64,000 nt of DNA from an uncultured Bacteroidota bacterium (GTDB lineage: Bacteria > Bacteroidota > Bacteroidia > Bacteroidales > P3), in the NCBI GenBank assembly GCA_902791695.1, contig CADAWR010000006.1, positions 1-64,000 on the forward strand, written 5' to 3'. A model generated the notes under the pieces. It was not told the origin of the DNA, did no database searches, and saw only the letters and a list, made by a program, of their open reading frames with translations. Each line of letters starts with the position of its first letter. The stretch's first letter is position 1. Shown here one piece after another: positions 717-60,119 of this stretch. A program made the position numbers and the translations under genes.

Positions 717-782
717 TTCTCATACCCTTCTCTCGTCCTTCTCATACCCTTCTCATACCCCATTTTTCACCGTTCACCGTTC
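717..782. repeat. 11-bp tandem repeat, six units
   Basis: Six consecutive 11-mers: TTCTCATACCC (three copies), TTCTCTCGTCC, CATTTTTCACC and GTTCACCGTTC. Three of the units are identical. The rest of 504-954 holds no gene I can support. Confidence 0.85.
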
Positions 783-840
783 ACCGATGCAGTTCATGGG
801 ACGCTCTTGTTTCTTTGCATCCGAAATCAGAAGGGCATAC

Positions 841-873
841 CTCCATGGTGACTCCGTGGTGACTCCCTCTCAG
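841..873. repeat. 11-bp tandem repeat, three units
   Basis: CTCCATGGTGA, CTCCGTGGTGA and CTCCCTCTCAG follow one another with an 11-bp period, 60 bp after the preceding array and just upstream of the holA promoter. Confidence 0.75.
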
Positions 874-933
874 ATTCGTAAAAAAACAGGGCAAGATATT
901 CTATATTTTTTATGTTGTTTTTTGGAAAAATCG

Positions 934-941
934 TATCTTTG
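934..941 (+). promoter_or_regulatory. holA promoter, -7 motif TATCTTTG
   Basis: Perfect TAnnTTTG consensus, with a TTG-containing -33 candidate at about 915-917. It lies 25 bases upstream of ATG 967, which supports that start over the GTG at 955. Confidence 0.7.
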
Positions 942-966
942 AAATCTCAAAAATGTGAATGCTGCG

Positions 967-1974
967 ATGGCACTGACTGACAAACAACTGATTGCTGAAT
1001 TGGCGGGTGGGAAATATCAGCCCGTTTACCTGCTCATGGGCGAGGAGGACTACTATATCGACAAGGTGTCGGACTGGATGGAGGAGCATATTGTCGACCC
1101 GACATTGCGCGATTTCGACCAGACGGTGGTCTACGGCCGCGATGTGGACATGAAGACGGTGGTGGGCCATTGCAAGCGCTTCCCGATGATGTCGCCGGTG
1201 CATCTGGTGATGGTGAAGGAGGCGCAGGGTATCGACAAGCGGCAGTGGGAACATCTGGTGCCCTATCTGCAGCAGCCGTCGCCGCAGACGGTGCTGGTGC
1301 TGTGCTACCGCCACGGGGCGCTCGACAAGCGCACGGGTGTCTACAAGGCCATCGCCGCCGCCGGCGTGGTGTACGAGACGCCCAGGGTTTACGACAACCA
1401 GGTGCCGGCATGGATAAAGGCCGAGGTGTCGGCCAATGGCCGCACGATAAGCGACAAGGCGGCGATGATGCTGAGCGAGTTCCTCGGCACCGACCTCGGC
1501 AAGACGGCCAACGAGCTGTCGAAGCTCTACCCTCTGGTGCCCGAAGGAGGCCAGATAGACGAGCGGCTCGTGGAGCAGCAGGTGGGCATCAGCAAGGACT
1601 ACAACGTCTTCGAGCTGCAGAGCGCCATAGGGCGGCGCGACCCTGTGATGTGCAACCGCATAGTCAACTATTTCGCCGCCAACCCCAAGAAGAACCCGAT
1701 ACAGCAGGTGCTGCCGTTGCTCTACGGATATTTCCTGAAGGTGATGATGTACCACCAGCTTGAGAACAAGAGCGACGCGGCCAAGGTGCTGGGCTGTGCG
1801 CCGGTGTTCGTGAAGGACTACGCGCTGGCGGCGAACAATTACAGCCTTGGTAAGCTGGCGGCATGCATAGGCTACCTCTACGATGCCGACCTGCGAAGCA
1901 AGGGCGTCCGCAACAGCGGCACGGTGACCGACGGCGAGATACTGAAGGAATTGGTGTTTAAAGTGATACATTGA
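967..1974 (+). CDS. holA: DNA polymerase III subunit delta
   Basis: 335 residues, the usual HolA length. The delta subunit is the wrench of the clamp-loader complex that opens the beta sliding clamp during chromosome replication. The N-terminal part (YLLMGEEDYYIDKVSDWM) matches the nucleotide-binding-like fold of the family, with no functional Walker A expected. The C-terminal third is the helical collar domain. A GTG at 955 would add four residues, but the TATCTTTG motif at 934-941 fits ATG 967 better. Its TGA overlaps the ATG of the TonB receptor gene (TGATG), so the two are probably translationally coupled, although no functional link is obvious. Confidence 0.9.
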   Translation: MALTDKQLIAELAGGKYQPVYLLMGEEDYYIDKVSDWMEEHIVDPTLRDFDQTVVYGRDVDMKTVVGHCKRFPMMSPVHLVMVKEAQGIDKRQWEHLVPYLQQPSPQTVLVLCYRHGALDKRTGVYKAIAAAGVVYETPRVYDNQVPAWIKAEVSANGRTISDKAAMMLSEFLGTDLGKTANELSKLYPLVPEGGQIDERLVEQQVGISKDYNVFELQSAIGRRDPVMCNRIVNYFAANPKKNPIQQVLPLLYGYFLKVMMYHQLENKSDAAKVLGCAPVFVKDYALAANNYSLGKLAACIGYLYDADLRSKGVRNSGTVTDGEILKELVFKVIH

Positions 1975-4328
1975 TGAAAAGAATATTTATAATTGTTTTA
2001 TTGGGATTGTTTGGCTTGATGGGCGAGGTGCTCGGGCAGGGCACGATACGCGGTACGCTGTTCGACGACGGGAACGGCGAGGCCATACCGTTTGCCAACG
2101 TTGTTCTCAACGAACGCGATCCACAGGGAGCGAATGTTGAGAAAACAACCAAGATGGGCTGTGCCACCGACTTGAGCGGTTTCTTCCTCATCAACAAGAT
2201 ACCCTACGGTACCTACACGCTGCACGTGCGCTTCATGGGCTACGAGGAGTACACGCAGGAGGTGGCGGTGAACGGCACGCGCCCCATCACGTTGACCATA
2301 CGCCTGAAGCCGTCGTCGCAGATGTTGCAGGAGGTGGTCATCAGCGACAGCAAGATAGAGGAGAAACGCATGCAGACGCAGGTGAGCGTGGAGAAGGTGA
2401 CGGCGGCGCAGATACAGCAGATGCCCTCCATTGGCGGACAGGCGGATATAGCGCAGTACATGCAGGTGCTGCCGGGCGTGAGCTCCACGGGTGACCAGGG
2501 CGGCCAGCTCTACATACGCGGCGGCTCGATGATACAGAACCTCTGTCTGCTCGACGGCATGATAGTGTACAATCCCTTCCACAGCATAGGCCTGTACTCG
2601 ATATTTGAGACAGACGTGATACTGAATGCCGACATATACACAGGTGGCTTCGGTGCCGAATATGGCGGGCGGCTGTCGTCGGTGATGGATATCACCACGC
2701 GCGACGGCAACAAGCGTCGCCACAGCGGCAAGATAGGGCTCAACACCTTCGGCGCAAGCCTGATACTGGAAGGCCCGCTGAAGCGCGAGACGGAGACCAG
2801 CAAGAGCACCATCACCTATCTGGTGACGGCAAAGAACTCGTACCTCTCATGGACGAGCAAGAAGCTCTACCCATATGTCGAGGGCGGCTTGCCGTTCGAC
2901 TTCCTTGACCTCTACGGCAAGCTGTCGATAAACAGTGGTACCGGCAGCAAGATAAACCTCTTCGGCTTCCGCTATGACGACAAAGTGACGGCCTACCAGG
3001 GACTGGCCGACTATCACTGGCAGAACTACGGTGCTGGCACCAACTTCACGCTTGTGACGGGAGCGTCGGCTATCCTCGACGGCTCTATAGCCTACTCGAA
3101 CTACTACATCACCCTCGACGACGGCTCGACGGACAAGAAATACAGCGAGATAGGCGGCTTCAATATGAACCTGCAGATAACGAACTTCATCGGTGGCAAC
3201 AAGCTGAAGTACGGCCTCAGCATGGAGGGTTACCACACCAACTACCACTTCATAAACCAGTATGGCTACAGCACTACGCAGGAGAAGCCGTCGACAAACC
3301 TGTCGCTCTTTATCACCTACAAGATGAACACTGGCAAGCTGCTGCTCGACCCGGGCTTCCGCCTTGTGTACTACGCCACACTCGGCCATGTGAGTCCTGA
3401 ACCGCGACTGGCGTTGAAGTACAATATCAGTGACAACTTGCGCGTGAAGTTCGCCGGAGGCTTCTACAGCCAGGTGTTCCTTGATGCCCGCTCCGACAAC
3501 GATATAGTGAACCTCTTCACGGGTTTCCTCACGGGCTCGTCAGACCTGAGCATCACCAAGTCATTCAGAGGCGAAGAGGTGAACACCTACACGCAGAAAG
3601 CCAAACATGCTGTGCTGGGTTTGGAGTACAACCTCGGTGAGCATATCACCCTCAACGCCGAGGGCTATTTCAAATATTTCGACCAGCTCATCAATGCCAA
3701 CCGCAACAAGATGTACGACCCCAGCGACCCCGCCTACCAGAGCGGCCCCTATGCGAAGCCGGAGTATCTGATGACCGACTTCATTGTGGAGAAGGGGTAT
3801 GCTACGGGCTTCGACGTCAGCGTGCAGGCCGACCTGGAGCGGCTCTACCTATGGGCTACATACTCGCTGGGCTATGTACAGAGAGAGGATGAGGTGCAGA
3901 AGTACAACCCCCACTACGACCGTCGCCACACGGTGAATATCCTCGGCACCTATGCCCTTGGAGCTTCGCGCGAGTGGGAGCTGAGCACCCGCTGGAGCTT
4001 TGGCAGCGGATTCCCGTTCACACAGACACAGGGCGTATTCGAGAGCCTTGTATTCAGTGGCGGCATTGTGAGCGACTACACGCAGGAGAACGGCCACTAC
4101 GGCATTCACTACGCCGAACTATATGCTGGACGGTTGCCGAACTACCACAGGTTGGACCTCGGCGTGAAGCGCAAGTTCTCTATCGGCAAGCGCGGCTTGC
4201 TCGAGCTGAGCCTCAGCGCCACCAATGTCTATAGTCGACAGAATATCTTTTACTACAACCGCGCCACGCACAAGCGTGTAAACCAGCTGCCCTTCTTGGC
4301 CAGCTTCGGCGCGGTGTTCACGTTCTGA
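1974..4328 (+). CDS. TonB-dependent outer-membrane receptor with carboxypeptidase-regulatory-like N-terminus
   Basis: 784 residues. A signal peptide (MKRIFIIVLLGLFGLMG...) is followed by a CarboxypepD_reg-like/CNA-B domain at about 23-105 (IRGTLFDDGNGEAIPFANV), then the plug at about 115-225 with the QLYIRGGS and LLDGMIVYNPFH segments. A beta-barrel of alternating aromatic strands ends in FGAVFTF with a terminal Phe, as for BamA-inserted proteins. It imports an unknown ligand using TonB/ExbBD energy. There is no SusD partner beside it, so a polysaccharide-utilisation role is not supported. The start overlaps the holA stop. The 3' end overlaps the convergent gene by 11 bp. Confidence 0.9.
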   Translation: MKRIFIIVLLGLFGLMGEVLGQGTIRGTLFDDGNGEAIPFANVVLNERDPQGANVEKTTKMGCATDLSGFFLINKIPYGTYTLHVRFMGYEEYTQEVAVNGTRPITLTIRLKPSSQMLQEVVISDSKIEEKRMQTQVSVEKVTAAQIQQMPSIGGQADIAQYMQVLPGVSSTGDQGGQLYIRGGSMIQNLCLLDGMIVYNPFHSIGLYSIFETDVILNADIYTGGFGAEYGGRLSSVMDITTRDGNKRRHSGKIGLNTFGASLILEGPLKRETETSKSTITYLVTAKNSYLSWTSKKLYPYVEGGLPFDFLDLYGKLSINSGTGSKINLFGFRYDDKVTAYQGLADYHWQNYGAGTNFTLVTGASAILDGSIAYSNYYITLDDGSTDKKYSEIGGFNMNLQITNFIGGNKLKYGLSMEGYHTNYHFINQYGYSTTQEKPSTNLSLFITYKMNTGKLLLDPGFRLVYYATLGHVSPEPRLALKYNISDNLRVKFAGGFYSQVFLDARSDNDIVNLFTGFLTGSSDLSITKSFRGEEVNTYTQKAKHAVLGLEYNLGEHITLNAEGYFKYFDQLINANRNKMYDPSDPAYQSGPYAKPEYLMTDFIVEKGYATGFDVSVQADLERLYLWATYSLGYVQREDEVQKYNPHYDRRHTVNILGTYALGASREWELSTRWSFGSGFPFTQTQGVFESLVFSGGIVSDYTQENGHYGIHYAELYAGRLPNYHRLDLGVKRKFSIGKRGLLELSLSATNVYSRQNIFYYNRATHKRVNQLPFLASFGAVFTF

Positions 4329-5052
4329 CGCCGTAGCCGAACAGGGCGAAGTCGCCTTTGAGCGGGTCGTCAGGGAACACCTCGCGCATAGCGTCGGTGA
4401 GCCTCAAGGCGGCGCTCATAGAGGCGCAACGGCTCTGTAGCAGACCGAGTTTCATGGCCTCGCTGACCACGTGCGTGTCAAGCGGCATTATGAGGGTGCG
4501 CTTATCGATAATGTCTTTCCACAGGCCAAGGTCCACCGGCGAGCCGTCGCGTACCATCCAGCGAAGGAACATGCACACTCGCTTGCAGGCCGACGTGGTG
4601 TCCTTGGGCACCACCACACTAACGCCATGTTCGGCGAACCAGCGGCAGATAATCCCCACCGCTTGCAGGGCCGTGCCGGAGACATAGGCGCCCATGCTGC
4701 CGTATTGCACCAGCATGTCTCTGTAGGCGTCGAAGAAGCGCCGCATGGTGTCGTTGTTGTAGAGGCGGTAGAAACACTGCTTGTCTCCTATGGCGAATCG
4801 CTCTGCATAGGCGCCCATGCGAAGCCACCGGTCCATATCGCCTTCGGCGTATTCGAGCAGTTGTCCTATCTTCGGCATGAACTGTGCGCGGCTGCCGTAG
4901 CTCAATACCGACGCCACGAAGGCCGTAGCCTCCTGGTTGCGCTCACCGCTCACCTGGTGCATCCACCACGACGGGTCGCCCACAATGAACTCGGGCGTCT
5001 CATAGCGCTCTGCCAGTTCTGCCAATATATTATGGATTTCACTTCTCTCCAT
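4318..5052 (-). CDS. TIGR02757 family protein (DUF2400)
   Basis: 244 residues, typical length for TIGR02757, a Bacteroidota-enriched family of unknown function. It shows the family hallmarks SVLSYGSRAQ near residue 50, RWMVRDGSPVDLGLW and the PLDTHV box, ending with FALFGYGVRT. The PLDTHV and helix-hairpin-like segments recall the HhH-GPD base-excision glycosylase fold; a DNA-repair role is a structural inference only. Its start overlaps the 3' end of the upstream AGCS transporter by 14 bp, so the two share a transcript. It converges on and overlaps the TonB receptor gene. Confidence 0.85.
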   Translation of the reverse strand: MERSEIHNILAELAERYETPEFIVGDPSWWMHQVSGERNQEATAFVASVLSYGSRAQFMPKIGQLLEYAEGDMDRWLRMGAYAERFAIGDKQCFYRLYNNDTMRRFFDAYRDMLVQYGSMGAYVSGTALQAVGIICRWFAEHGVSVVVPKDTTSACKRVCMFLRWMVRDGSPVDLGLWKDIIDKRTLIMPLDTHVVSEAMKLGLLQSRCASMSAALRLTDAMREVFPDDPLKGDFALFGYGVRT

Positions 5053-6610
5053 CTTTCCAGTATTCGCAGTCTATGCCAAGCGCCTTTGGGTTGAACTTGG
5101 GCTCCACGCCCTGTTTCTTCTGCCGTTCGTAGTCCTTGAGTGCGCGTAGCGCCTGCGACGAGAGCAGCAGTATGGCCACAACGTTTATCCATGCCATAGC
5201 GCCCACGCCGATGTCGCCGATGGTCCATGCTATGCCGCTGCCGGCCATGGCGCCGAGGAAGACAGCCGCGATGGTGCCGCTGCGGAGCAGCCACACTACC
5301 ACCTTCTCGCCGTGGTCGTCGCCGAAGTGCATGTCGGCCTCCTCCAACTCGGCCAGCCGTTCAGGGTGTTTCTTGTAGATACGGCGACGCCAGCGGTTGA
5401 AGAGATAGACGAGGTTGGTCTCGGCATAGTAATAGTAGGCCATGATGGTAGTGAAGGCGAAAAAGAAGAGTGCTATGGATATGACCATGTCGCTGGTTTT
5501 GGAACCTATCACGGTGCCGAGTGCGCCGGTGGTGTAGAACACGCCTGGCTCGCCTTCCGGCGCCAGGGGGTTCTGCTGCAGGTAGGTGACAACAGGGCCG
5601 GCGGCGGTCTGCTGCACGGTGTCTATGATGTTGTATGTCTTGCAGGCCAGTATCATCATGGCTGTGGCGGTGCACACCAGCAAGGTGTCGATATACACCG
5701 AGAAAGCCTGCACCAGGCCCTGCTTCACGGGGTGGCTCACCTTGGCGGCTGCGGCCACTATCGGGCCCGTGCCCTGACCCGCCTCGTTGCTGTATATGCC
5801 GCGTTTCACGCCCCAGGCTATTGTGCTGCCCAGCAGGGCTCCACCCACTTCGTTCACGCCAACGGCACCGCGCAACATCTGCACGAACACGTCGGGCACT
5901 ATCTGCCAATTGACAGCCAGCACCACAATGGAGAGTACGATGTATACCAGAGCCATCACAGGTGCCACGACCTGAGCCACGTTGGCTATACGCTTCACGC
6001 CGCCGATTATCACCAGCGCTATGAGCAATGCCACGACGGCGCCGACAGCCCACACCGGTACGCCAAACGAGCGCGAGCAGCTGAGAGCTATGCCGTTGCA
6101 CTGCACCGGTGGCAGCAAGAAGCCGCAGGCCACAGCCGCAAGCACTGCAAACAATCCACCGAAGAATGGCGAGCGCAATCCTTTCTCTATATAGTAGGCC
6201 GGCCCTCCGCGGAACTGTCCGTTGTGGTCCTCCTTGTAGATCTGCGCCAATGTGGCCTCGATGAAGGCGCTGCCGGCGCCGAAGAAGGCTATCACCCACA
6301 TCCACACTATGGCTCCCGGGCCGCCGAAGCCTATGGCCGTGGCCACGCCCACGATGTTGCCCGTGCCCACACGGCCCGAGAGGGCCATGGCGAAGGCCTG
6401 GAACGACGAGATGCCCGTCTTTTTCTTGTCCTTACCGGCGCTGCCGAACAGCAGCCTGAACATCTCGCCGAAACGACGCACCTGCACAAAGCGTGTCCTG
6501 AATGAGAAATACAGTCCTGCCAGCAGGCACAAACCCACCAGCGCAGGGCTCCACACCCATCCGTTCACCGTATTAATGGCCTCCACCAGCCATCTTCCAA
6601 TTGTATTCAT
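5039..6610 (-). CDS. Alanine/glycine:cation symporter, AGCS family
   Basis: 523 residues with about eleven hydrophobic segments. AGCS signatures are present: GTGNIVGVATAI followed by GGPGAIVWMW, and QFRGGPAYYIEKGL. These inner-membrane carriers take up alanine or glycine with Na+ (or H+). The C-terminal tail past about 470 is hydrophilic and cytoplasmic. The gene has its own -7 motif at 6631-6638, divergent from the vanX-like gene. Substrate choice between alanine and glycine cannot be read from the sequence. Confidence 0.92.
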   Translation of the reverse strand: MNTIGRWLVEAINTVNGWVWSPALVGLCLLAGLYFSFRTRFVQVRRFGEMFRLLFGSAGKDKKKTGISSFQAFAMALSGRVGTGNIVGVATAIGFGGPGAIVWMWVIAFFGAGSAFIEATLAQIYKEDHNGQFRGGPAYYIEKGLRSPFFGGLFAVLAAVACGFLLPPVQCNGIALSCSRSFGVPVWAVGAVVALLIALVIIGGVKRIANVAQVVAPVMALVYIVLSIVVLAVNWQIVPDVFVQMLRGAVGVNEVGGALLGSTIAWGVKRGIYSNEAGQGTGPIVAAAAKVSHPVKQGLVQAFSVYIDTLLVCTATAMMILACKTYNIIDTVQQTAAGPVVTYLQQNPLAPEGEPGVFYTTGALGTVIGSKTSDMVISIALFFFAFTTIMAYYYYAETNLVYLFNRWRRRIYKKHPERLAELEEADMHFGDDHGEKVVVWLLRSGTIAAVFLGAMAGSGIAWTIGDIGVGAMAWINVVAILLLSSQALRALKDYERQKKQGVEPKFNPKALGIDCEYWKDGEK

Positions 6611-6630
6611 ACCCTTGTGTTTTTGAAGTG

Positions 6631-6638
6631 CAAAAATA
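6631..6638 (-). promoter_or_regulatory. -7 motif TATTTTTG for the AGCS transporter
   Basis: Reads TATTTTTG on the minus strand, 20 bases before the start codon at 6610. No clear -33 TTTG is seen. It is back to back with the plus-strand promoter at 6670. Confidence 0.6.
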
Positions 6639-6645
6639 CTAATAT

Positions 6646-6677
6646 TTTGATGATGTGGGAAAAAAATCGTATCTTTG
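6646..6677 (+). promoter_or_regulatory. Promoter of the VanX-like gene, -33 TTTG and -7 TATCTTTG
   Basis: TTTG at 6646-6649 and TATCTTTG at 6670-6677 are separated by 20 bases, the classical Bacteroidota spacing. The start codon 6703 is 25 bases downstream. Confidence 0.8.
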
Positions 6678-6702
6678 CAACAAATATAAACACAACGAAA
6701 CT

Positions 6703-7452
6703 ATGAAAAAAGCATTCATCCCCTTGATGCTGTGTGTCTTGGCCGTCATTACGGCCGGCTGCGGCAGCAAACAGGAACCTGCAACCCCCGAAGCCGACGC
6801 CTCCGCCTTCGTCAACATTACCGACGTGGTGCCCGATGTCATCCTCGAAATACGCTACTTTGGCACCTACAACTTCGTAGGCTCGCGCATCGACGGCTAC
6901 CTCCAGCCCACCGCGCTCCTCACTCGCCAGGCCGCCGACAGCCTTCTGGCCGTCAGCAACGACCTCAAGGCCCAAGGCTACCGCCTGAAAATCTACGACG
7001 CCTACCGTCCGCAGAAGGCTGTCGACCACTTTGTGCGCTGGGGCAAAGACCTTGACGACACGCTGATGAAGAGCTATTTCTATCCCCGCGAATGCAAGGA
7101 CAGCCTCTTCATAAAGCTATACATCGATGAGCACAGCAGCCATTCGCGAGGCTCGACGCTCGACCTCACCCTCTTCGACATGCGCACCGAGAAGGAAGTC
7201 GACATGGGCGGCACCTTCGACTGGTTCGGCCACGAGAGCCATCCCGACTGCGGCGGCGACCCCGACACATGGGCCTACCGCGAGAACGACACCATCACCG
7301 CCCAGCAGTTCGCCAACCGCATCATCCTGCGTACCGCCATGATGCGTCACGGCTTCAAGCCCTACGATTGCGAATGGTGGCATTTCACCCTCAAGGACGA
7401 ACCCTTCCCCGACACCTATTTCACTTTCCCCGTGCAACAGCTTCCGCGCTAA
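6703..7452 (+). CDS. D-Ala-D-Ala dipeptidase family lipoprotein (peptidase M15D, VanX/DdpX-like)
   Basis: 249 residues. Type II signal peptide with lipobox ITAGC (Cys20), so it is probably a membrane-anchored periplasmic enzyme. The M15D zinc site is complete: HSRGSTLDLTL supplies His and Asp ligands and EWWHF near the C-terminus the catalytic Glu and third ligand. YRPQKAVDHF carries the substrate Arg region. VanX cleaves D-alanyl-D-alanine. In this non-glycopeptide-resistant context, recycling of peptidoglycan dipeptide is more likely than resistance, as there is no vanHA beside it. An upstream ATG at 6655 lies before the -7 motif and is rejected. Confidence 0.88.
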   Translation: MKKAFIPLMLCVLAVITAGCGSKQEPATPEADASAFVNITDVVPDVILEIRYFGTYNFVGSRIDGYLQPTALLTRQAADSLLAVSNDLKAQGYRLKIYDAYRPQKAVDHFVRWGKDLDDTLMKSYFYPRECKDSLFIKLYIDEHSSHSRGSTLDLTLFDMRTEKEVDMGGTFDWFGHESHPDCGGDPDTWAYRENDTITAQQFANRIILRTAMMRHGFKPYDCEWWHFTLKDEPFPDTYFTFPVQQLPR

Positions 7453-7570
7453 CCCTCCGTACCCTCTCCGACTGTTCTACGGTTGTTCACCGGTTGTTTA
7501 ACGGTTTAAACCGTTAAACAACCGGTGAACAACCGTTAAAAATACGGCGCGGATACGGTGAGGGGGTGTA
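7453..7570. repeat. Long palindromic 11-mer repeat, copy 1
   Basis: Contains a perfect 58-bp palindrome (7479-7536) built from GTTGTTCACCG and GTTGTTTAACG units, centred on GGTTTAAACC. The outer flanks (CCGTACCCTCTCCG; GGATACGGTGAGGG) are imperfect complements. It begins one base after the vanX-like stop. No T-run follows, so it is not a standard terminator. Related copies are at 14619, 25640, 35957 and 59981. Confidence 0.9.
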
Positions 7571-7664
7571 GCTGGTGGGGTCGGGCAGTAGTTTATTGCC
7601 GCATTGCGTCAAGTGCGGCTTTGGGGTACGGGCCGGTTAAGTTGTACTTCTGTTAAAAAATAAT

Positions 7665-7695: not shown

Positions 7696-7781
7696 CATTT
7701 CAAATACCAACGTCCAAGCCGAGTGGCGGATGGCCGGAATGATAAATGGTCAATAATATAAACCAATTAAAATATAACAAT

Positions 7782-14618: not shown

Positions 14619-14750
14619 CCCTGTACCCTCTCCGTATCCCCTCCGTCTCTTCTCCGTCTGTTCTACGATTGTTCACCGATTGTTTAACGGTTTTAATCGT
14701 AGAACAACCGGTGAACAACCGTAGAACAGTCGGACTGGGTACGGAGAGGC
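14619..14750. repeat. Long palindromic 11-mer repeat, copy 2
   Basis: Same centre as copy 1 (GTTGTTCACCG, GTTGTTTAACG and complements) with longer outer arms of CTCTCCGTAYC-like units. It lies between the divergent bamD and guaA start codons, so it is not a 3'-end element. Confidence 0.88.
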
Positions 14751-14829: not shown

Positions 14830-14837
14830 TATCTTTG
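14830..14837 (+). promoter_or_regulatory. -7 motif TATCTTTG for guaA
   Basis: TATCTTTG 22 bases upstream of ATG 14860. The -33 region is weak. Confidence 0.7.
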
Positions 14838-25639: not shown

Positions 25640-25776
25640 TCCGTACCCGCTCCGTCTGTTCTACGGTTGTTCACCGGTTGTTCGCCGATTTAAACCGTTA
25701 AACAACCGGTGAACAACCGGTGAACAGACGGAGCGGGTACGGAAAGGGTATGAGAAGAGTATGAGAAGGGTATGGT
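25640..25776. repeat. Long palindromic 11-mer repeat, copy 3
   Basis: Perfect 22-bp outer arms (TCCGTACCCGCTCCGTCTGT... and complement, 25640-25743) enclose GTTGTTCACCG-type inner arms. It is followed by GGGTATGAGAA-type 11-mers to 25776, the reverse complement of the array at 717-760. It lies between divergent rfbB and T9SS genes. Nothing else but the promoter is seen in 25545-25913. Confidence 0.9.
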
Positions 25777-35956: not shown

Positions 35957-36060
35957 ACGCACCCGCTCCGGACTTCCTCCGGCTCCGCTCCGACAAAAAA
36001 CCGTTAAACAACCGGTGAACAGTCGGAGCGGGTACGGAGCGGGTACGGAGCGGGTGCGGA
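35957..36060. repeat. Long palindromic 11-mer repeat, copy 4 (shortened)
   Basis: Outer arms ACGCACCCGCTCCG and GGAGCGGGTGCG match, and the right side is an exact 11-bp tandem (GGAGCGGGTAC twice, GGAGCGGGTGC). The inner left arm with GTTGTTCACCG is missing, so the copy is internally deleted. No other feature is seen in 35871-36060. Confidence 0.85.
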
Positions 36061-44898: not shown

Positions 44899-45008
44899 GT
44901 AGGCTTGTGGTAGGTAGTAGTCATGTGGTAAGTCCTATGTAAGTCCACGGTGGAAAGCCTAAAGTTTCGGTTTAGTTTCGGTTCAGTCCCGGTTAAGCTT
45001 CGCTTCTC
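44899..45008. repeat. 11-bp tandem repeat, ten units
   Basis: Ten consecutive 11-mers, from GTAGGCTTGTG, GTAGGTAGTAG, TCATGTGGTAA through TTTCGGTTTAG, TTTCGGTTCAG, TCCCGGTTAAG to CTTCGCTTCTC. The sequence drifts but the period holds. It lies in the likely 5' leader of the gene ending at 44085. Confidence 0.85.
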
Positions 45009-45693: not shown

Positions 45694-45730
45694 CCGCTTT
45701 ATTTTTCATCATATAACCATCATCTAAACA

Positions 45731-52545: not shown

Positions 52546-52678
52546 AACAATCTTTTTCTCAATAACGCACTCTTTTCGATTTTATTGCATGTACCGCCAA
52601 TTTTTGGGGGGTTGAAGGGTATGAGGAAATAGGTTCGTGATAAACTGAAACCCAGTAGGGCAAAGGTTCATTTTTATT

Positions 52679-52774
52679 TGTACCCGTTTTGTACCCATTT
52701 AAGACGTAATTATTATGTTAAAAAGTAATAAATTGGAACCGTGAGAAACAAAAGTTGGGTTTATTTTGGGTGCA
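52679..52774. other. Integrase arm-type-like sites at the right end
   Basis: Inverted GGGTACAAAACGGGTACA at 52679-52696 and GGGTTTATTTTGGGTGCA at 52757-52774, both paired boxes 11 bp apart. A stretch at about 52733-52750 (TTGGAACCGTGAGAAAC) mirrors, inverted, 45288-45312. Nothing codes in 52546-52811. Confidence 0.6.
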
Positions 52775-52986: not shown

Positions 52987-53016
52987 TTTTTTTTGAAATA
53001 TTTTTATCTCACTACG

Positions 53017-53811
53017 CTAACGGCTTGTTATATCGGTTGATATGAGGCGCAGATTGTCAATCATGTCGGAGGCTATGAGACTCGATTCCGACTGTTTTTG
53101 TGTGGCAATATCACCGATTTTGCCATGTGTCTCTACTGCTTTACACACGATATCATACATGGATGCGTGCAAGTGATTGGCAGAGAGCATTCCGAGTAGT
53201 ATTCCGGTCAGCACATCTCCACTGCCCGCTGTGGCCATACCGGCGTTGCCAGTCTGGTTGACAAACAGCTGTCCTTCGGGACAGTATACATGTGTTCGGT
53301 GGCTTTTCTTCACGACAATCAGGCTGTATTCTTTGGCCATCTGCGATGGGTCAGCGTCGCCGAAAAGCCGTTCATATTCGCGTGCATGGGGTGTGACGAT
53401 GGCTCCTTTCGCCAGGGGCAGCCATTCTTTGTGCATCGCCAGCACGTTCAGCGCATCGGCGTCGAGCACCAGCGGCATCTCCTCTGGCCGTGTGGTGAGC
53501 AACATGTGCAGAGCCTCGGCGGTCGCCTTGTCTGTTCCAAGCCCTGGGCCTGCTGCTATGGCCGTGTAGTGGTCAAGGTTGGCTGGTGCTGAGGTGAAGA
53601 GGGTTGGCGAGGGGTCTATGCTCACCATAGCCTCGGGGAAAGCCGCCTGCATGGACTCCACGCACCGCTGCGGCAAGTGCGCTGTCACCAGTCCGCAGCC
53701 GCTCCTCAGCGCGGCCTTCGCCGCCAGTATGGCGCACCCCATGCGCCCGTAGGCCCCCGCTATCAATAGCCCGTGCCCGTAGTCGTGTTTCGTCGTCTCT
53801 TGGTTCCGCAT
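53017..53811 (-). CDS. ADP-dependent NAD(P)H-hydrate dehydratase, stand-alone
   Basis: 264 residues. YjeF C-terminal/ribokinase-like fold that repairs hydrated NAD(P)H: LLIAGAYGRMGCAILAAKAALRSGCG, AAGPGLGTD, IVTPHAREYERLFG and the GNAGMATAGSGDVLTGIL anion hole. In Bacteroidales this domain is usually the second half of bifunctional Nnr (about 500 residues) behind the YjeF_N epimerase. Here the ATG at 53811 follows a promoter with no room for the epimerase. Confidence 0.9.
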   Translation of the reverse strand: MRNQETTKHDYGHGLLIAGAYGRMGCAILAAKAALRSGCGLVTAHLPQRCVESMQAAFPEAMVSIDPSPTLFTSAPANLDHYTAIAAGPGLGTDKATAEALHMLLTTRPEEMPLVLDADALNVLAMHKEWLPLAKGAIVTPHAREYERLFGDADPSQMAKEYSLIVVKKSHRTHVYCPEGQLFVNQTGNAGMATAGSGDVLTGILLGMLSANHLHASMYDIVCKAVETHGKIGDIATQKQSESSLIASDMIDNLRLISTDITSR

Positions 53812-53856
53812 GATAGGTAGTATGATAGTAACTGTTATTGCTTGTGAAATGATTTG

Positions 53857-53864
53857 CAAAGATA
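53857..53864 (-). promoter_or_regulatory. -7 motif TATCTTTG for the NAD(P)HX dehydratase
   Basis: Minus-strand TATCTTTG, 45 bases before ATG 53811, fixing the start and excluding the longer frame from 53898. Confidence 0.75.
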
Positions 53865-53966
53865 CATCTTTTTTTCGAATTGCCGCCATGTCTGCCACCT
53901 TAGGTATACCTTCCTACCGTCCTTCATCGGTTTTTTCCCCTATTCTATGACTATCGTATAACCGTA

Positions 53967-54054
53967 TTTCAACCATAATATATGGTAAAAGGATGGTCGA
54001 AGGATGGTTGAAATATGGTCGAAATGATGGTTAGTTGGCGGAGGAAAAGCGGAG
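53967..54054. repeat. 11-bp tandem repeat with dyad symmetry
   Basis: AAGGATGGTCG, AAGGATGGTTG, AAATATGGTCG, AAATGATGGTT, AGTTGGCGGAG, GAAAAGCGGAG from 53989 on. Upstream ATTTCAACCAT is the inverted complement of ATGGTTGAAAT inside the array. Nothing else is seen in 53865-54120. Confidence 0.8.
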
Positions 54055-54124
54055 GAATGGGGGTGGGGGAGTGCTAGGACATCGAAAGCGGACCGCCATA
54101 GGGGCCGGAGGGGTGCAAAAAGGA

Positions 54125-54158
54125 AGCCTCCGCAGGAGCTATGGCTCCTGCGGAGGCT
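54125..54158 (-). terminator. Rho-independent terminator of the M16 protease gene
   Basis: 15-bp perfect stem AGCCTCCGCAGGAGC and complement, 4-base loop, then TCCTTTTT on the minus strand, 28 bp after the stop. Confidence 0.92.
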
Positions 54159-54185
54159 CTGTTAGTGTGTCTGTTTAGCCGAGAA

Positions 54186-57095
54186 TCAGTCGGCGGTTCC
54201 GACGGCGCCATCCTCCGGACGGAGCTTGACGACGACGTAGTTGTTCAGGTTGATGTACTTGGCAGCGACGGCCTTGATGTCGGCGGTGGTGATGGACTTG
54301 ACGAGGCTGTCATAGTCTTTCACATGGTAGTCGCGGTCCTCGTTGTCCATGTAGCTGGCCTGGATCTGGCCGAGCCAGAAGCCGTTGTTCTGGACGCTCT
54401 TGGCGTGCTGGACGCACATCTGCTCCTGCACCTTGCCGAGGGTCTTCTCGTCGCAGCCTTTCTTCATGTACTGCTTCATGATGTTGATGCAGTCTTTCTC
54501 AATCTTCTTGGCCTTCTCGGGGTCGCAGCCGATGTAGAACTGCCAGCTGACGGTGGCGGGGCCTGCGTTGGGGATGCTGTAGTCGACGCCGGCGCTGGGG
54601 CTGTAGGCGTCACCGTTCTTCTCGCGGATGATCTCGAGGGTGGTCATGCCGAGGGCATCGCCGAACTCCTGGATGGCCAGGCGGGTCTTAACGTCGAGTT
54701 CCTCAACGGGGATGTCAATCTGGCCACTGATGAGGAGCATACCCTGGCGCTCGATACCCTTGACGGCTTCGGCGTGCTGGATGCCTTTGGCAAACTTGGG
54801 GCTGCGGTCGAGGCAGTAGTTCTTGGTGACGGCCTGGATGGTGGGCAGGTGGTTCAGATATTTGGCGATGAGGCCGATGGCGGTGTCGCTGATGTTGCCG
54901 ACGAAGAAGAAGGTCTGGTTGTTGGCAAAGGCGAAGCGCTCTTTGTAGATGTCATACATGCGGTCGAGGTTGAGGCTGCGCACCTTCTCCTCGCTGGGGA
55001 TGACGACCTGACGCTTGTCGTTGGGATAGGCAGTCTTGTAGTAGGTCTCGAGGAAGGCCACCTGCGGGTTCTCGCGGATGAACTTGATCTGCTGGATGGT
55101 GTTCTCTATGTTGCGCTCATAGGCTTCCTGGTCCTTGCGGGGAGCGGTGTAGTAGAGGTTGATGAGCTGCAGAGTGGTCTCGAGGTCCTTGGGCGAGCAG
55201 CTGCCGCTGAAGCCCTGGGTGGTGCCGCCGATGTAGGGGCTGATGCTGAGGTTCATGCCTTTGAGCTTCTTGTTGAGCTGGGTGGCGCTGAAGTTGGCGA
55301 TACCGCCGGCATCGATGAAGCTGTCGGCGTTCTCGGCCTGGTAGCTGTCCTCGTCGCCATAGAGCGAGGTGCCGCCGAAGGAGTAGGAACTGATCTGGAT
55401 CTCATCGGCCTTCAGCTCGGTCTTCTTCACGATGAAGCGGATGCCGTTGGGGCAGGTGTACTCGGTGTAGTCCATGGTGCTGTTGCTGGCGGTCTTGATG
55501 GGAGTGACGTCGGCGACGGTCTCGTTGAAGAGGGGCTCGTCGTTGAAGTTGTCGACCCAAGGCTCAGTCTTGATGTTCTTGAAGTTCTTGAGGATGTCGA
55601 GGGCTTCCTTGTCGGTGGGCACCTTGAAGCCTTCCTTCTCGGGGGCGGTGAGGTAGAACACTATGTTCTCGTCGGTAATCCAGCTGCTGACCAGGGCGTT
55701 GCACTCAGCGAGGGTGATCTCGGGGATGAACTCCTTGGCATACTTCCATTCCTGGCGGATGCCGGGGCAGGGCTCGTTGTCGAGGTAGTGGTTGGTGTAC
55801 TCGTCGGCGAGGCTGTTGGTCTGGGTCTTGTTCTCCTCCTTGGCCATCTTGGTGTAGGTGCTGAGGAGGTCTTCTTTCTGGCGGTCGAGCTCGGCCTGCA
55901 GGAAGCCGTGGTCGTCAATCTGCTTGATCACCTGGAGCAGCATCTGGGCGGTCTCCTCGATGCGGTTCTCCTTGGGAGCGGCGCTTACCTCGAAGACGTC
56001 AATCTCGCGGCCGAGGAAGCCGCCGTGGCCGCCGCCGGCATACATCATGGGGGCGGTGGGCTTCTGGGTGAGCTCGCTGAAGCGCTCGTTGATCATCATG
56101 CCGATGAGGCTGCGGACGAGCATCTGGCGGTAGTCGCCGACAGTGCCGTTGTGGGCTTTCTTGTGCTTCCAGAAGATCTCAAGGGTGGCGTTGGTGGCCT
56201 CCTTGTCGGTGGCGATGGCCACGAGGGGCTCCACGTTGTTGGGTATCTCGTAGCTCAGGCGGGGCAGTTTCTCTTTGCCGAGGAACTGGTGGCTGCTGAA
56301 CACGTCTTTCACCTTCTGCTCCATGGCTTTGTCGCCTTTCTTGCCGGCATACTCGAAGCCGTCAAGGTCGCCGACGATGACGATGGCCTGCAGGTCGGGA
56401 CGGTACCAGTCGTTGAAGAAGTCGACGATGCTCTGGCGCTCGAAGTGCATTATGACCTCCTCCTTGCCGATGGGCAGGCGGTCGGCATAGCGCGAACCTT
56501 TGAGCATGATGGGCCATGTCTTCTTGCGGAGACGGTCGCCGTGGCCTACGCCACCGCGCCACTCCTCGTGGATGACGCCGCGCTCGCTCTCAATTTCCTT
56601 CTGGTCAAAGAGGATGTTGCCGGCCCAGCCGTCGAGGATTTCGATACCCATCTTCACCATCTCGGGGTCGTTGGAGGGCATGTTGACATAGTAGACGGTT
56701 TGGTCGAACGATGTGTAGGCGTTGATGTCGCGGCCGAACTCCACACCGTGCTCCTGCAGCTTCTGGATCATGGTGTTGTGGGGGTAGCCCTTGATGCCGT
56801 TGAAGGCCATGTGCTCACAGAAGTGGGCCAGACCCTGCTGGTCGTCGCGCTCCATGATGGAACCGGCATTGCTGACCAGACGGAACTGAATCATGTTCTC
56901 AGGCTTCTTGTTGTTGCGGATGTAGTAGGTGAAGCCGTTGTCCAGCTTACCGTAGCGGATCTTCTTGTCCAGGGGTACCTGGGCGGTCAGGTCGCTCTTC
57001 TTCTCCTTCTTGTCACCGCTGCCGGGCAGCTGGGCGAAGGACATGCCGCCGAAGAGGAACATCAGCAGCATTGCGAATAACATTGTTTTTTTCAT
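54186..57095 (-). CDS. Periplasmic M16 family zinc protease (pitrilysin-like, two M16 pairs)
   Basis: 969 residues. Signal peptide 1-21 (MLLMFLFGGMSFAQ). N-terminal M16 domain with the inverted zinc motif HFCEH near residue 92 and downstream Glu in ESERGVIHEEWRGG. The second half has a degenerate M16 pair, as in PqqL-type two-chain-in-one enzymes. Degrades peptides in the envelope. Own terminator downstream; 47 bp after the XRE gene. Confidence 0.92.
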   Translation of the reverse strand: MKKTMLFAMLLMFLFGGMSFAQLPGSGDKKEKKSDLTAQVPLDKKIRYGKLDNGFTYYIRNNKKPENMIQFRLVSNAGSIMERDDQQGLAHFCEHMAFNGIKGYPHNTMIQKLQEHGVEFGRDINAYTSFDQTVYYVNMPSNDPEMVKMGIEILDGWAGNILFDQKEIESERGVIHEEWRGGVGHGDRLRKKTWPIMLKGSRYADRLPIGKEEVIMHFERQSIVDFFNDWYRPDLQAIVIVGDLDGFEYAGKKGDKAMEQKVKDVFSSHQFLGKEKLPRLSYEIPNNVEPLVAIATDKEATNATLEIFWKHKKAHNGTVGDYRQMLVRSLIGMMINERFSELTQKPTAPMMYAGGGHGGFLGREIDVFEVSAAPKENRIEETAQMLLQVIKQIDDHGFLQAELDRQKEDLLSTYTKMAKEENKTQTNSLADEYTNHYLDNEPCPGIRQEWKYAKEFIPEITLAECNALVSSWITDENIVFYLTAPEKEGFKVPTDKEALDILKNFKNIKTEPWVDNFNDEPLFNETVADVTPIKTASNSTMDYTEYTCPNGIRFIVKKTELKADEIQISSYSFGGTSLYGDEDSYQAENADSFIDAGGIANFSATQLNKKLKGMNLSISPYIGGTTQGFSGSCSPKDLETTLQLINLYYTAPRKDQEAYERNIENTIQQIKFIRENPQVAFLETYYKTAYPNDKRQVVIPSEEKVRSLNLDRMYDIYKERFAFANNQTFFFVGNISDTAIGLIAKYLNHLPTIQAVTKNYCLDRSPKFAKGIQHAEAVKGIERQGMLLISGQIDIPVEELDVKTRLAIQEFGDALGMTTLEIIREKNGDAYSPSAGVDYSIPNAGPATVSWQFYIGCDPEKAKKIEKDCINIMKQYMKKGCDEKTLGKVQEQMCVQHAKSVQNNGFWLGQIQASYMDNEDRDYHVKDYDSLVKSITTADIKAVAAKYINLNNYVVVKLRPEDGAVGTAD

Positions 57096-57142
57096 GGTTT
57101 GTTGGTTTTAAATGTTGTTTTGTTTATTTGATTGTTTTGTGA

Positions 57143-57364
57143 TTACTTTGTGTTGCTCTCGTCGTCGGGGCGGTATTCCAGCAGGTCGGCGGGCTGGCAG
57201 TCGAGCACCTGGCACAGGCGCTCAAGTGTGCTGAAGCGTACGGCCTTGGCCTTGCCGGTCTTGAATATTGACAGGTTGGCCGGCGTTATGTCGATCTTTT
57301 CCGCCAGTTCGCCCAGCGATATCTTCCGCTTGGCCATCATCATATCCAGATTAACTACAATCAT
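57143..57364 (-). CDS. XRE-family (YozG-like) transcriptional regulator
   Basis: 73 residues, a single helix-turn-helix: MMAKRKISLGELAEKIDITPANLSIFKTGKAKAVRFSTLERLCQVLDCQPADLLEY. This short regulator typically accompanies DUF2975 membrane proteins, as here 21 bp downstream of one. A GTG at 57382 would add six residues; homologues I know begin M-x-(I/V)-(I/V)-NLD, which favours ATG 57364. Probably controls its own operon. Confidence 0.88.
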   Translation of the reverse strand: MIVVNLDMMMAKRKISLGELAEKIDITPANLSIFKTGKAKAVRFSTLERLCQVLDCQPADLLEYRPDDESNTK

Positions 57365-57385
57365 TCCTTTTTCAACTTTCACTTT

Positions 57386-58066
57386 TCAAATCGTCAACTC
57401 CTGATCTTCCTGTATGTCGCGCCCAATCTTGAATATCTCGGCCATGAAGATTATCGTCAGGCCGAAGAGTATGCGGGTCATGTGTATCGACACCTTTGCC
57501 GAGGGAACCCATTGGCTTTGCTGCAGCAGGTCGAAGGCAATGCTGCGCTCCAGGTAGGTGCTGATATCCATGCCGAGCGACATGAGTATCATCAATATGC
57601 CGGCCCATGTGAGCCATGTGATGTTCTTCTTGGGGAACACCTTCCCGCGTCGCGTATAAATATAGAATGAAATAAGAGACATGATCACGAGCACCGTCAT
57701 TGCAATGCCTGCCAGCACGCAGAACAGTTGCAGCCACATGCACCAGGCGGCTTTGCTTGCGGGAACGGCCTGCATGTCATTAGACATAAACGTAACGTTG
57801 ATGTCGAAGTTTTTTATAAAGGCCTTGGCATCGAAACCGTCGACGAGGCCATCGATGGCAATCTCTTGTTGGTAGAGTTGAGGTGAACTCTGCAAGTCGG
57901 TTATGATAATGCCGTAGTCACTGGTGTTGTCACCAATGTTGGCCACGCCGATAGGGTCGGCAGTGGTGAAAACGTTAAGGAAAAAGAGAGCAATGCACAA
58001 TGCAATTACGCCCATGAAGATAGCGTAAAGTGTTCTTATTCGTGTTATTGTAGCCTTTTTTGACAT
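57386..58066 (-). CDS. DUF2975 membrane protein
   Basis: 226 residues with four predicted transmembrane helices (about 12-32, 115-138, 160-180, 200-218) and a soluble loop between the first two. DUF2975 plus a YozG-like regulator is a widespread, functionally unknown pair. Start ATG 58066 lies 24 bases after the -7 motif; the in-frame ATG at 58093 overlaps that motif and is rejected. Confidence 0.85.
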   Translation of the reverse strand: MSKKATITRIRTLYAIFMGVIALCIALFFLNVFTTADPIGVANIGDNTSDYGIIITDLQSSPQLYQQEIAIDGLVDGFDAKAFIKNFDINVTFMSNDMQAVPASKAAWCMWLQLFCVLAGIAMTVLVIMSLISFYIYTRRGKVFPKKNITWLTWAGILMILMSLGMDISTYLERSIAFDLLQQSQWVPSAKVSIHMTRILFGLTIIFMAEIFKIGRDIQEDQELTI

Positions 58067-58090
58067 ATCGTTACCATTGTTTCTCGACGG

Positions 58091-58098
58091 CAAAGATA
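58091..58098 (-). promoter_or_regulatory. -7 motif TATCTTTG for the DUF2975-XRE operon
   Basis: Minus-strand TATCTTTG. The rest of 58099-58280 is A/T-rich without visible features. Confidence 0.75.
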
Positions 58099-58280
58099 CA
58101 ACTTTTTTCTTACATGCAAGAAAAATTTTGCGAAAAACGAAAAAAAATTATTGTTTTCCGATAAATATTATATGTAAAACATGAAATATGGGCGGTTCGA
58201 AATGTTCCTGCCCGGGAGCGCAAACCATCGTTCAGAGTAATAGCGCTTGTTTTTGCGCCATAAAACAGTTTTCTGTTCGG

Positions 58281-59075
58281 TTAGCACTCGTATTTCTCAA
58301 GGGCTTGGCGGAGCTCCACAGGGCTGATGTCGTGGTGTATCTGGCCGCCAATGGCATAGCTGATGGCGCCAGTCTCCTCGCTGACGATGACGGCCAGCAC
58401 ATCGAGTTGCTCGGTGACGCCAATGGCGCTGCGGTGGCGCAAGCCGAGGTTGGGGTCCACGTCGAGGCGCGACGTCACGGGCAGTATGCAGCGCGCCGCC
58501 AGCAGCTGGTTGCCGTGGGCTATTACGGCGCCGTCGTGCAGGGGCGAGTTCTTGAAGAACAAGGCCTCGATCAATGCGCTGGATGCCAGGGCGTCGATGC
58601 GCTCGCCGGTGTCGATTATCTCGTCCACCGAGTTCTGCCGTTTGAAGACTATCAGGGCGCCGGTCTTGCTCTGCGACATGTGCATGCAGGCGTTCACATA
58701 GGCTTCGTAGCCTACAGTGCCCTTGTTCTGCATATTGTGGCGCCAGAACTGCAGCCGTTTCCACAGGCTCTCATTGAGCTGTGTCTTGGTGCCGAGGAAG
58801 AGCAGGAACTTGCGTATCTCGGGCTGGAAGATGACAACGAGGGCAATGAGACCCACGCTTGCCACTCCGCCCAGCAGGGCGCCGAGCAGTCTCATCCCCA
58901 ATGCGTTGGCTATGCGCCAGCCGAGGAACATGATGAGCAGTGCCCAGAAGATGAGCATCACGTTGGTGCCGCGCACCATGCGGTATAGATAGTAAAGAAG
59001 TCCGGCGACGATGACAATGTCGAAGATGTCAACTACGCGCAGAGTGGGCAGGCCAAGAATTGCGTCTATTATCAT
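58281..59075 (-). CDS. cdaA: Diadenylate cyclase CdaA (DisA_N domain membrane protein)
   Basis: 264 residues. Three N-terminal transmembrane helices (about 15-32, 38-55, 65-85), then the DAC domain with DGA in PLHDGAVIAHGNQLLAARCILP and RHR in LGLRHRSAIG. Makes the second messenger c-di-AMP. ATGA overlap with folP; the folP-cdaA order is known in Bacteroidales. No ybbR/cdaR partner is adjacent. Confidence 0.94.
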   Translation of the reverse strand: MIIDAILGLPTLRVVDIFDIVIVAGLLYYLYRMVRGTNVMLIFWALLIMFLGWRIANALGMRLLGALLGGVASVGLIALVVIFQPEIRKFLLFLGTKTQLNESLWKRLQFWRHNMQNKGTVGYEAYVNACMHMSQSKTGALIVFKRQNSVDEIIDTGERIDALASSALIEALFFKNSPLHDGAVIAHGNQLLAARCILPVTSRLDVDPNLGLRHRSAIGVTEQLDVLAVIVSEETGAISYAIGGQIHHDISPVELRQALEKYEC

Positions 59076-59920
59076 AATGTGTTGCGGTATAACAGTTTAA
59101 CGGTCTCCTCGGCAGGCCTTACGTCGTGCACCCGAATGGCCGCTGCGCCGCGGTCGAGGGCTATGGTGTCGAGAGCCACGGTGCCGTTGAGGGCCTCGGC
59201 GGGCGTGGTGCCGAGGGTGGTGTAAATCATGCGCTTGCGGCTCAGTCCGACGAGCACGGGCTCGCGGAAGAGGGTGGTGAGCTCGTCGAGGCGGTCGAGG
59301 AGCTCGAAATTCTGCTCCATGCTCTTGGCGAAGCCAAGGCCAGGGTCGAGCCATACATCCTTGACCCCCAGGCGGTATAGGACGTCGAGGCGCGCTGAGA
59401 AGAACTTTGTCAGGGTGTCCACGGGGTCGCCGTCGCCCATCTCCTTGATGCCGGCCAGGTGCTCCTTGCCGCCATGCATCAGTATGTAAGGCACTTGCAG
59501 CTCGGCCACAACGCCGAACATCTGCTCGTCGGCCTCGCCGCCGCAGATGTCATTGACCATGTCGGCCCCGGCCTCTATGGCTGCTCGCGCAGGCATTGAG
59601 TAACAGGTGTCTACGGAAATCAGAGCCTCAGGCAATTCGGTGCGCACCAGCCGCACAGCCCATGCCAGCCGTTCGGCCTCCACCTCGCGGGGCGGCAGCA
59701 CAGCCCCGGGTCGGCTCGACGCGGCACCGATGTCGATGATGTCGGCCCCCTCGGCCACAATGGCTTGCGCGCGCCGCACAATGGCCTCCTCCGAGCGATA
59801 GCGGCCACCGTCGTAGAACGAGTCGTCGGTGACGTTGAGGATGCCCATCACCGCCGGCCGGCGGAACTCCACGAGGCGCCCGCGTGCCACGATGCTGAAC
59901 GGTCTGATTGTCTGTTTCAT
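59072..59920 (-). CDS. folP: Dihydropteroate synthase
   Basis: 282 residues, TIM barrel. Joins p-aminobenzoate to hydroxymethyl-dihydropterin diphosphate; the sulfonamide target. MGILNVTDDSFYDGG (loop 1, Asn for metal), DIGAASSRPGA (loop 2), DMVNDICGG, WLDPGLGFAKSMEQN and the C-terminal IRVHDV are present. Coupled to cdaA. Divergent from the DUF1599 gene across a palindromic repeat. Confidence 0.95.
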   Translation of the reverse strand: MKQTIRPFSIVARGRLVEFRRPAVMGILNVTDDSFYDGGRYRSEEAIVRRAQAIVAEGADIIDIGAASSRPGAVLPPREVEAERLAWAVRLVRTELPEALISVDTCYSMPARAAIEAGADMVNDICGGEADEQMFGVVAELQVPYILMHGGKEHLAGIKEMGDGDPVDTLTKFFSARLDVLYRLGVKDVWLDPGLGFAKSMEQNFELLDRLDELTTLFREPVLVGLSRKRMIYTTLGTTPAEALNGTVALDTIALDRGAAAIRVHDVRPAEETVKLLYRNTL

Positions 59921-59980
59921 TACCTTTTAATAACGCCGTCGCACCGCGATTATTGCACCACCGCACAAAAAATATTGCCC

Positions 59981-60119
59981 CTCCGACCCCGCTCCGTATC
60001 CTCTCCGTCTCTTCTCCGACTGTTTACCGGTTGTTCACCGGTTGTTTACCGGTTTATATCGTAGAACAACCGGTGAACAACCGTAGAACAGACGGAGAGG
60101 GTACGGAGATGGTACGGAC
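59981..60119. repeat. Long palindromic 11-mer repeat, copy 5
   Basis: GTTGTTCACCG-type centre and CTCTCCGTMYC-type arms, like copy 2. It sits between the divergent folP and DUF1599 starts. The remaining 60120-60183 is A/T-rich. Confidence 0.88.

Follow-up and report, generated by a model that had tools for sequence, protein, structure and literature searches.

Dispersed intergenic arrays of 11-bp units in an uncultured Bacteroidales bacterium and its relatives

The intergenic DNA of an uncultured Bacteroidota bacterium (Bacteroidia; Bacteroidales; P3) and of relatives in its genus contains a lineage-wide class of dispersed, mostly two-armed repeats built of 11-bp modules. The stretch under study, of 64,000 nucleotides and 55 percent guanine plus cytosine (GC), is positions 1 to 64000 of contig CADAWR010000006.1 (C6) of assembly GCA_902791695.1; it is hereafter called the window, holds nine such arrays, and belongs to a genome of 2.17 Mb in 37 contigs (G000). 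The arrays may be understood as an old family that evolves in concert with its register locked and that is kept as a one-turn-spaced protein platform, a reading whose chances for and against appear balanced and of which the platform function is the part that we infer. The evolutionary claim is the strongest. The arrays are probably a form of dispersed intergenic repeat and not a system of an altogether new kind, and partial evidence points, for some of the orthologous arrays, to a difference of one or two complete units.

The period itself is well marked. In a self-match scan of 464 kb of G000, from which stretches reading as N were excluded, lag 11 gave 55 strong segments, no other lag between 5 and 30 gave more than 12, and one Markov-resampled control gave none; the excess that the preliminary description of this DNA had proposed to seek by autocorrelation against a control is present. 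The pattern CGG(N8CGG)x3 has 271 matches in the genome, as against 2 for the reversed pattern. In 864 kb, 82 lag-11 arrays are intergenic and none is genic, and with a looser threshold 2 of 50 arrays in the 464 kb are genic, genes having been called with a Markov caller of our own and not with a published tool. Array cut-offs differ by analysis (16 or 17 of 22; 22 of 30) and array counts vary accordingly.

Motif assignment places 63 of the 82 arrays in one main family and 19 outside it; scaled from 864 kb to 2.17 Mb, the counts of 63 and 82 extrapolate to ~160 main-family arrays and ~200 arrays overall. The family is a two-armed, palindrome-like element with inner units AACAACCGnnn and outer units CGGAGnGGGTA, GTTGTTCACCG and GGAGCGGGTAC being the inner and outer modules of one element. 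A 401-bp query around positions 14619-14750 of the window has 81 matches in the genome, many of them in opposite-strand pairs, which are the mark of a palindrome, and the 15-bp core ACCGGTGAACAACCG has 350 matches at up to 2 mismatches, several per element (5 for the reversed pattern). Among 54 type A hits, 40 have both arms and were aligned on their dyad to give the outward consensus AAACCGTTAAACAACCGGTGAACAACCGTAGAACAGACGGAGCGGGTACGGAGAGGG; in type B, one arm is made of outer-type modules only. Both arms point outward from the dyad and the 11-bp register is held through inner and outer modules: CG stands at consensus positions 5, 16, 27, 38, 49 and 60, a recurrence every 11 bp which carries the register without a break from the inner modules (AACA-type) into the outer ones (GGAG-type). 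It was followed to ~60 bp from the dyad, in elements of ~85-140 bp.

Within the 40 two-armed type A elements, the AACA and CG positions hardly vary (18 of 1280 cells deviate), five types of variable triplet cover 226 of 240 cases, and the centre is anti-symmetric, one inner triplet ending in A and the other in G in 37 elements. Conservation within units was considered as proof of protein contact, an argument weakened in that five types supply the variable triplets; the pattern looks like unit shuffling inside a recent family. In G000 the elements have a conserved centre and fading ends; the near-identical ~105-bp copies in the relatives G012 and G029 end more sharply. An exact scan of other genome contigs for the core unit, which may exclude the window's own genome, returned 21 stretches, all in RUG12227 (uncultured Bacteroidetes) and RUG649 (uncultured Bacteroidales); RUG genomes derive from cow rumen. 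Viral contigs had no exact match to the G000 core unit, the one unit sought there. The structure is not that of clustered regularly interspaced short palindromic repeats (CRISPR), as units run head-to-tail with no spacers; no search was aimed at cas genes.

Some single loci deserve mention beside the family. On contig C3 of G000 (L193, 16733-16926) a long GGGGGTAGGTC array adjoins a type A element, and the aligned gap of the relative G019 is without it. Contigs C3 and C9 start nearly alike over their first 400 bases, array included (L189, L205), which is probably one repeated locus where the assembly broke off. At L068, 3393-3533, a 140-bp AT-rich array TTTGTATATG(T) has period 11 and does not resemble the main family.

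The period is held across species while the unit is not. In a search of 59 genomes, guaA and folP were each found in 55, and 30 upstream regions per gene were compared; distant species are under-represented because only the best-scoring loci were taken. With a cut-off of 16/22, chosen after the guaA scores were known, lag 11 scores at or above it upstream of guaA in 19 of 30 genomes (none of the other lags between 6 and 19 in more than 3) and upstream of folP in 13 of 30 (other lags in at most 4). The guaA arrays of the 19 genomes comprise, by eye, about twelve units, including TTGTTCACCGG, TTCTTCAGTAG, AGGAGTTGGTA, TTGTACAGTAC, TTGTTGTCCGC, GTTGATCAGGC, ACGTATCAACA, GCATTTAGTTT and GGAGTTTGGGT, and close relatives have units in common. 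A TAnnTTTG box, the Bacteroidetes promoter motif, lies 30-31 nt before the guaA ATG in all 30 genomes, with the arrays upstream of it; where no guaA array is found, a gene often lies directly upstream (by eye, uncounted). Seven species have arrays at both loci. Within each of them the guaA array aligns with the folP array at a score of 41-163 (median 65); between species, with the three closest pairs left out, the median is 16 (maximum 31, n=36) for one locus and 17 (maximum 35, n=36) across loci. Units are thus more species-specific than locus-specific. In G004 a stretch of ~35-40 bp is nearly identical upstream of folP and guaA (L270, L123), likely a recent copy from one locus to the other.

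Arrays of other words were also met when CGG(N8CGG)x3 was sought in 61 genomes (e.g. CGGACCATCCT in G010 and CGGGTTGAGGT in G016), a search which alone is no proof because control counts are also high in G003, G008 and G023. Intergenic segments of 12 relatives (~100-120 kb each, low-complexity sequence removed) numbered 73 at lag 11, 81 at lag 7, 36 at lag 9, 32 at lag 8, 30 at lag 14, 23 at lag 22, and 3, 3 and 2 at lags 10, 12 and 13. Lag-11 segments range from 14 per relative (G010) to 1 (G065, ~100 kb), and G029 has 11 of them with no other lag except 22. In G000, once the main family is removed, 19 arrays are left at lag 11, 16 at lag 8, 12 at lag 7, and 2, 2 and 1 at lags 10, 12 and 13. 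Tandem repeats of periods 7, 8 and 9 lie mostly at other places than those of 11; a second tandem class of period 7 (also 8 and 9), e.g. AGGTGAA and ATAACCC, was noted in stretches of G002, G065, G080 and G012 (e.g. L154-158, L144-148). One 20-kb stretch was scanned from each of five other families of the order, and none gave a lag-11 segment. A member of another family, G048, has at L040 an array CGGGAATTTAT of mixed period 10-11.

As to placement, among gaps of at least 150 bp in G000 an array is present in 36 of the 46 divergent ones, in 21 of the 96 tandem ones and in 4 of the 16 convergent ones. In the 12 relatives 33 lag-11 arrays are divergent, 21 tandem and 12 convergent, with 7 at stretch ends and 3 genic, in a sample of 73 divergent, 204 tandem and 41 convergent gaps of at least 150 bp. 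Arrays of lags 7, 8 and 9 occupy divergent gaps in none of 63 cases in G000 and in 23 of 251 in the relatives, being mostly found in tandem gaps and genes; the 11-bp class is, therefore, distinct in place as well as in period.

The arrays and elements of the window, to which no strand is assigned, and the promoter box of guaA are as follows.

717-762: 11-bp array TTCTCATACCC (reverse complement GGGTATGAGAA), ~4 copies, upstream of a holA-like gene (DNA polymerase III delta)
836-870: 11-bp array CTCCATGGTGA, ~2.4 copies, from Tandem Repeats Finder (TRF) and the lag scan
7453-7570: type A two-armed element, dyad 7507/7508, immediately 3' of the stop codon of the M15 peptidase open reading frame (ORF) 6655-7452
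14619-14750: type A two-armed element, dyad 14693/14694, between a bamD-like gene (minus strand) and guaA (plus strand)
14830-14837, plus strand: TAnnTTTG box of guaA, 30 nt before the ATG, the guaA array lying upstream of it
25640-25776: type A two-armed element, dyad 25691/25692, with outer TATGAGAAGGG units at 25744-25774, in a divergent gap
35957-36060: type B element, the left arm of outer-type modules only, the right arm ACCGTTAAACAACCGGTGAACAGTCGGAGCGGGTA
44959-45002: 11-bp array AAGTTTCGGTT, ~3.7 copies, in a divergent gap
53976-54031: 11-bp array AAGGATGGTCG, 3.2-3.5 copies
59981-60119: type A two-armed element, dyad 60055/60056, between folP (Pterin_bind, minus strand) and a DUF1599 gene (plus strand)

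The preliminary description had reported nine degenerate 11-bp tandem arrays, all outside genes. TRF has period-11 rows at all nine loci and two short extras (45707-45727, 52677-52700), the lag-11 scan recovers exactly the nine, and our gene calls leave all of them intergenic, so that these statements hold with a shift of some edges: at 717-782 the 11-periodicity ends at ~762 and 766-786 is a 7-mer, at 44899-45008 it is clear at 44959-45002 only, and at 53989-54054 it is clear to ~54031 only. The units had been taken as unrelated, which is half true: the arrays at 7453, 14619, 25640, 35957 and 59981 form one family; a constant period with changing sequence, likewise, does not describe these five of the nine, which belong to one dispersed family, and does describe the comparison between species. 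The unit of the array at 717-762, or a related one, recurs at 25744-25774 and in L074 and L078, and the reverse complement of the unit at 53976-54031, CGACCATCCTT, is similar to the main unit of G010. An alternative ORF with an upstream TTG start (59908-60747) would overlap all of 59981-60119. Neighbours named by Pfam are mostly housekeeping (holA-like, M15 peptidase, bamD-like, GDP-mannose dehydratase/epimerase, seryl-tRNA synthetase, M16 peptidase, folP, DUF1599), with no match for 2 of the 10 neighbouring genes scanned; guaA was identified by reading its sequence. Three ORFs of 508 aa beside arrays, considered as a common neighbour, are a coincidence of length, as they read, without a Pfam run, as GMP synthase, a secreted thioredoxin-like protein and an aminoacyl-histidine dipeptidase.

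How arrays change is best seen against close relatives. At the site after position 7452, G000 and G019 differ by an 11-bp insertion and by a matched triplet change in both arms (CAC to TAA, GTG to TTA); another site is type B in G000 and type A in G019; and the gap with the guaA array differs by 23 bp between the two, its array DNA evolving, by eye, faster than the adjoining promoter flanks. In 12 anchored orthologous gaps (RUG12227, G019), mostly picked for holding the main family and leaving four further arrays without an anchor, both partners have an array at all 12. Their lengths differ by 0, -11, -10, +11, +12, +23, +232, -9, +3, +71, +790 and -204, seven within 1 of a multiple of 11 where ~3 would be expected by chance, including the +232, which is a large unrelated difference. 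Gap runs of 11, 12 or 22 make up 12 of 53, a tally which includes two gaps twice.

A mechanism consistent with these observations is that units and whole arrays would be swapped between loci of one genome in 11-bp steps, by recombination or template switching in register, the sequence drifting in concert and period and place being inherited, as in satellite DNA. Exchange in register would lead to an inherited period with a drifting word and needs no selection on the word. The preliminary description had suggested a common generating mechanism or a spacing constraint: register-locked concerted evolution would account for the inherited period, and a one-turn spacing may apply as well. Placement at divergent promoters and the scarcity of lags 10 and 12 appear to go beyond exchange alone, once-per-turn contact with a protein being the most natural reason for them. 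Less firmly, the arrays may be retained as a platform on which a cooperative protein would touch a single face of the DNA at every 11-bp step, as at CarH, PhoB-type or ParR operators; the reading protein would differ between species. A bolder version, a chromosome-wide promoter code in which only the step is fixed, each species having its own 11-bp words and a fast-evolving polymerising reader or an unknown copier of 11-nt steps, with word and reader turning over together, is doubtful.

Several results weigh against concerted evolution of a retained platform. Once the main family is set aside the lag-11 excess over lags 7 and 8 in G000 is small, and lag 7 outnumbers lag 11 in the 12 relatives; short stretches (3-20 kb) of G015, G018, G021, G028 and G036 have no arrays and G065 yields one in 100 kb; stepwise length change by 11 bp is weakly supported, by 7 of 12 gaps at family-biased loci. 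Agreement between the arms is overall no greater than in shuffled pairs (the observed value is attained in 363 of 500 shuffles; 14 of the 54 type A hits, with a single recognised arm, many of them type B, or near an end, were left out), so that exchange between arms is not general. A reading protein was not found, and the sole candidate of the OmpR/PhoB type in G000 fails if it is a direct reader.

Among other explanations, the one with most to be said for it, although it is less probable than concerted evolution with a platform, is that of selfish dispersed palindromic repeats without a host role, similar to repetitive extragenic palindromes (REP) and bacterial interspersed mosaic elements (BIME) or to miniature inverted-repeat transposable elements (MITE), placed where selection against damage to genes and operons allows. 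The nearly complete restriction to intergenic DNA, ~60 family copies in 864 kb with a palindromic core, the near-identical copies of G029 and G012 and the near-same array at two loci of G004 would all follow; the fading ends in G000, with no fixed termini, speak against it, as do the different arrays found at one promoter in different species, and neither target duplication nor an empty site was seen by eye in the 12 anchored gaps, few sites mostly chosen for the family. Furthermore, the REP-associated transposase (RAYT, Y1_Tnp), to which the preliminary description had pointed, is absent from G000 and G019, a search of 37 genomes having found it in 27; G000 and G019 are two of the three genomes with the most CGG-type arrays, and the third, G010, has one. 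Recurrent local duplication of 11 bp by slippage or template switching with a one-turn step, unselected, would explain that several units share one period, the 19 non-family arrays included, and that one site has a symmetric change in both arms along with an 11-bp indel. It is, however, unlikely, given units common to many loci of the genome, which are not a product of local duplication, and no genic array among 82.

Physical and regulatory causes fare worse. That the DNA is intrinsically curved or wraps gyrase, so that composition periodic at nearly the helical turn matters, is very unlikely: divergent gaps collect negative, not positive, supercoils, and in 41 units (picked by eye, their curvature modelled with wedge parameters) phasing is not above that of permuted 11-mers (mean z -0.28 for GC, -0.15 for purine, 0.09 for keto and -0.01 for modelled curvature), by which curvature and GC phasing were rejected and the simple helical version of the preliminary description lost its support. 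The two-armed elements have a dyad and a length that would suit such wrapping, and a preprint (PMC12324340) describes a preference of gyrases for GC at a periodicity of 10-11 bp up to 120 bp from their cleavage sites. Operator arrays of one conserved OmpR/PhoB-type factor with 11-bp head-to-tail half-sites would match the tandem architecture, the variable spacer, the place upstream of promoters and the presence of a single such DNA-binding domain in G000. Yet its stretch AARSMDVYITKLRK, which we take to hold the recognition helix, is identical in 16 of 16 presumed orthologues, many from species with different units (the second or third such domain of several relatives lying outside the comparison); this regulator was rejected as a direct reader of the units and the explanation is highly improbable. 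Equally hard to credit are RNA hairpins, terminators or cruciforms in which arm pairing is the function. The arms are complementary and agree above shuffled level at positions 29-30, 36-37 and 43 (z 2.6-3.1), but at positions 8-9 they regularly fail to match (0.12 and 0.07, where 0.41 and 0.51 would be expected), overall agreement at shuffled level led to rejection of hairpin covariation, divergent rather than convergent gaps are favoured, and Rfam at gathering score finds two tRNAs in the window and nothing else.

A description of such a pattern was not found in the literature searched, preprint servers and most subscription journals being outside the search. Eukaryotic satellite DNA under concerted evolution keeps its monomer length while its sequence drifts between species; the present arrays differ in being short, dispersed and at bacterial promoters. 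REP and BIME palindromes measure 20-40 bp. Dispersed extragenic palindromes in high copy number are found both in the REP/BIME-RAYT systems and here (PMC3733652, PMC12306157). The present elements differ in their 11-bp modular arms, in a register reaching ~60 bp from the dyad, in their association with divergent promoters and in the lack of RAYT in G000 and G019. Operators of the PhoP/PhoB type usually have two half-sites and a conserved motif. They combine a 7-bp motif with a 4-bp spacer into an 11-bp head-to-tail step (PMC4832192), a step found here as well upstream of promoters; the candidate regulator of G000 does not vary with the units. CarH operators, which are few and share a TnnACA motif, have three to five 11-bp direct repeats in tandem; they lie at promoters, in some cases within divergent gaps, and are bound cooperatively along one side of the DNA (PMC9304148). 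The present arrays, in contrast, extrapolate to ~200 and have species-specific units. ParR-parC arrays are direct repeats of 11 bp (R1) or 10 bp (pB171) which vary between families along with their cognate proteins (PMC9426499); they form a single plasmid centromere, whereas the present arrays are chromosome-wide and promoter-linked. CarH, ParR of R1 and PhoP-type operators are known examples of once-per-turn contact with an 11-bp step. Within the Bacteroidales, the BrickBuilt MITE/minisatellite of Porphyromonas gingivalis (19 copies in ATCC 33277) is likewise intergenic, with direct tandem repeats, variable in number between strains, inside a dispersed element; it has a 23-nt unit, a leader and a tail, terminal inverted repeats, and target duplications at three of four testable copies (PMC4596501), as opposed to an 11-bp unit, ~82 arrays per 864 kb, ends that fade in G000 and units that differ between species.

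If the arrays are kept by selection, they would be DNA of a regulatory or structural kind whose pitch and place are conserved and whose sequence is not, and which searches based on alignment miss; if neutral, they would be a clear example, in a bacterium, of dispersed sites that evolve in concert as satellites do. They can be detected by a simple lag scan of intergenic DNA, and close strains make the question testable. Finally, positions 358-394 and 458-494 of the window form a separate inverted repeat with short ACAGTTGTG repeats (TGGGACAGTTGTGACAGTT and AACTGTCACAACTGTCCCA) around an AT-rich stretch.

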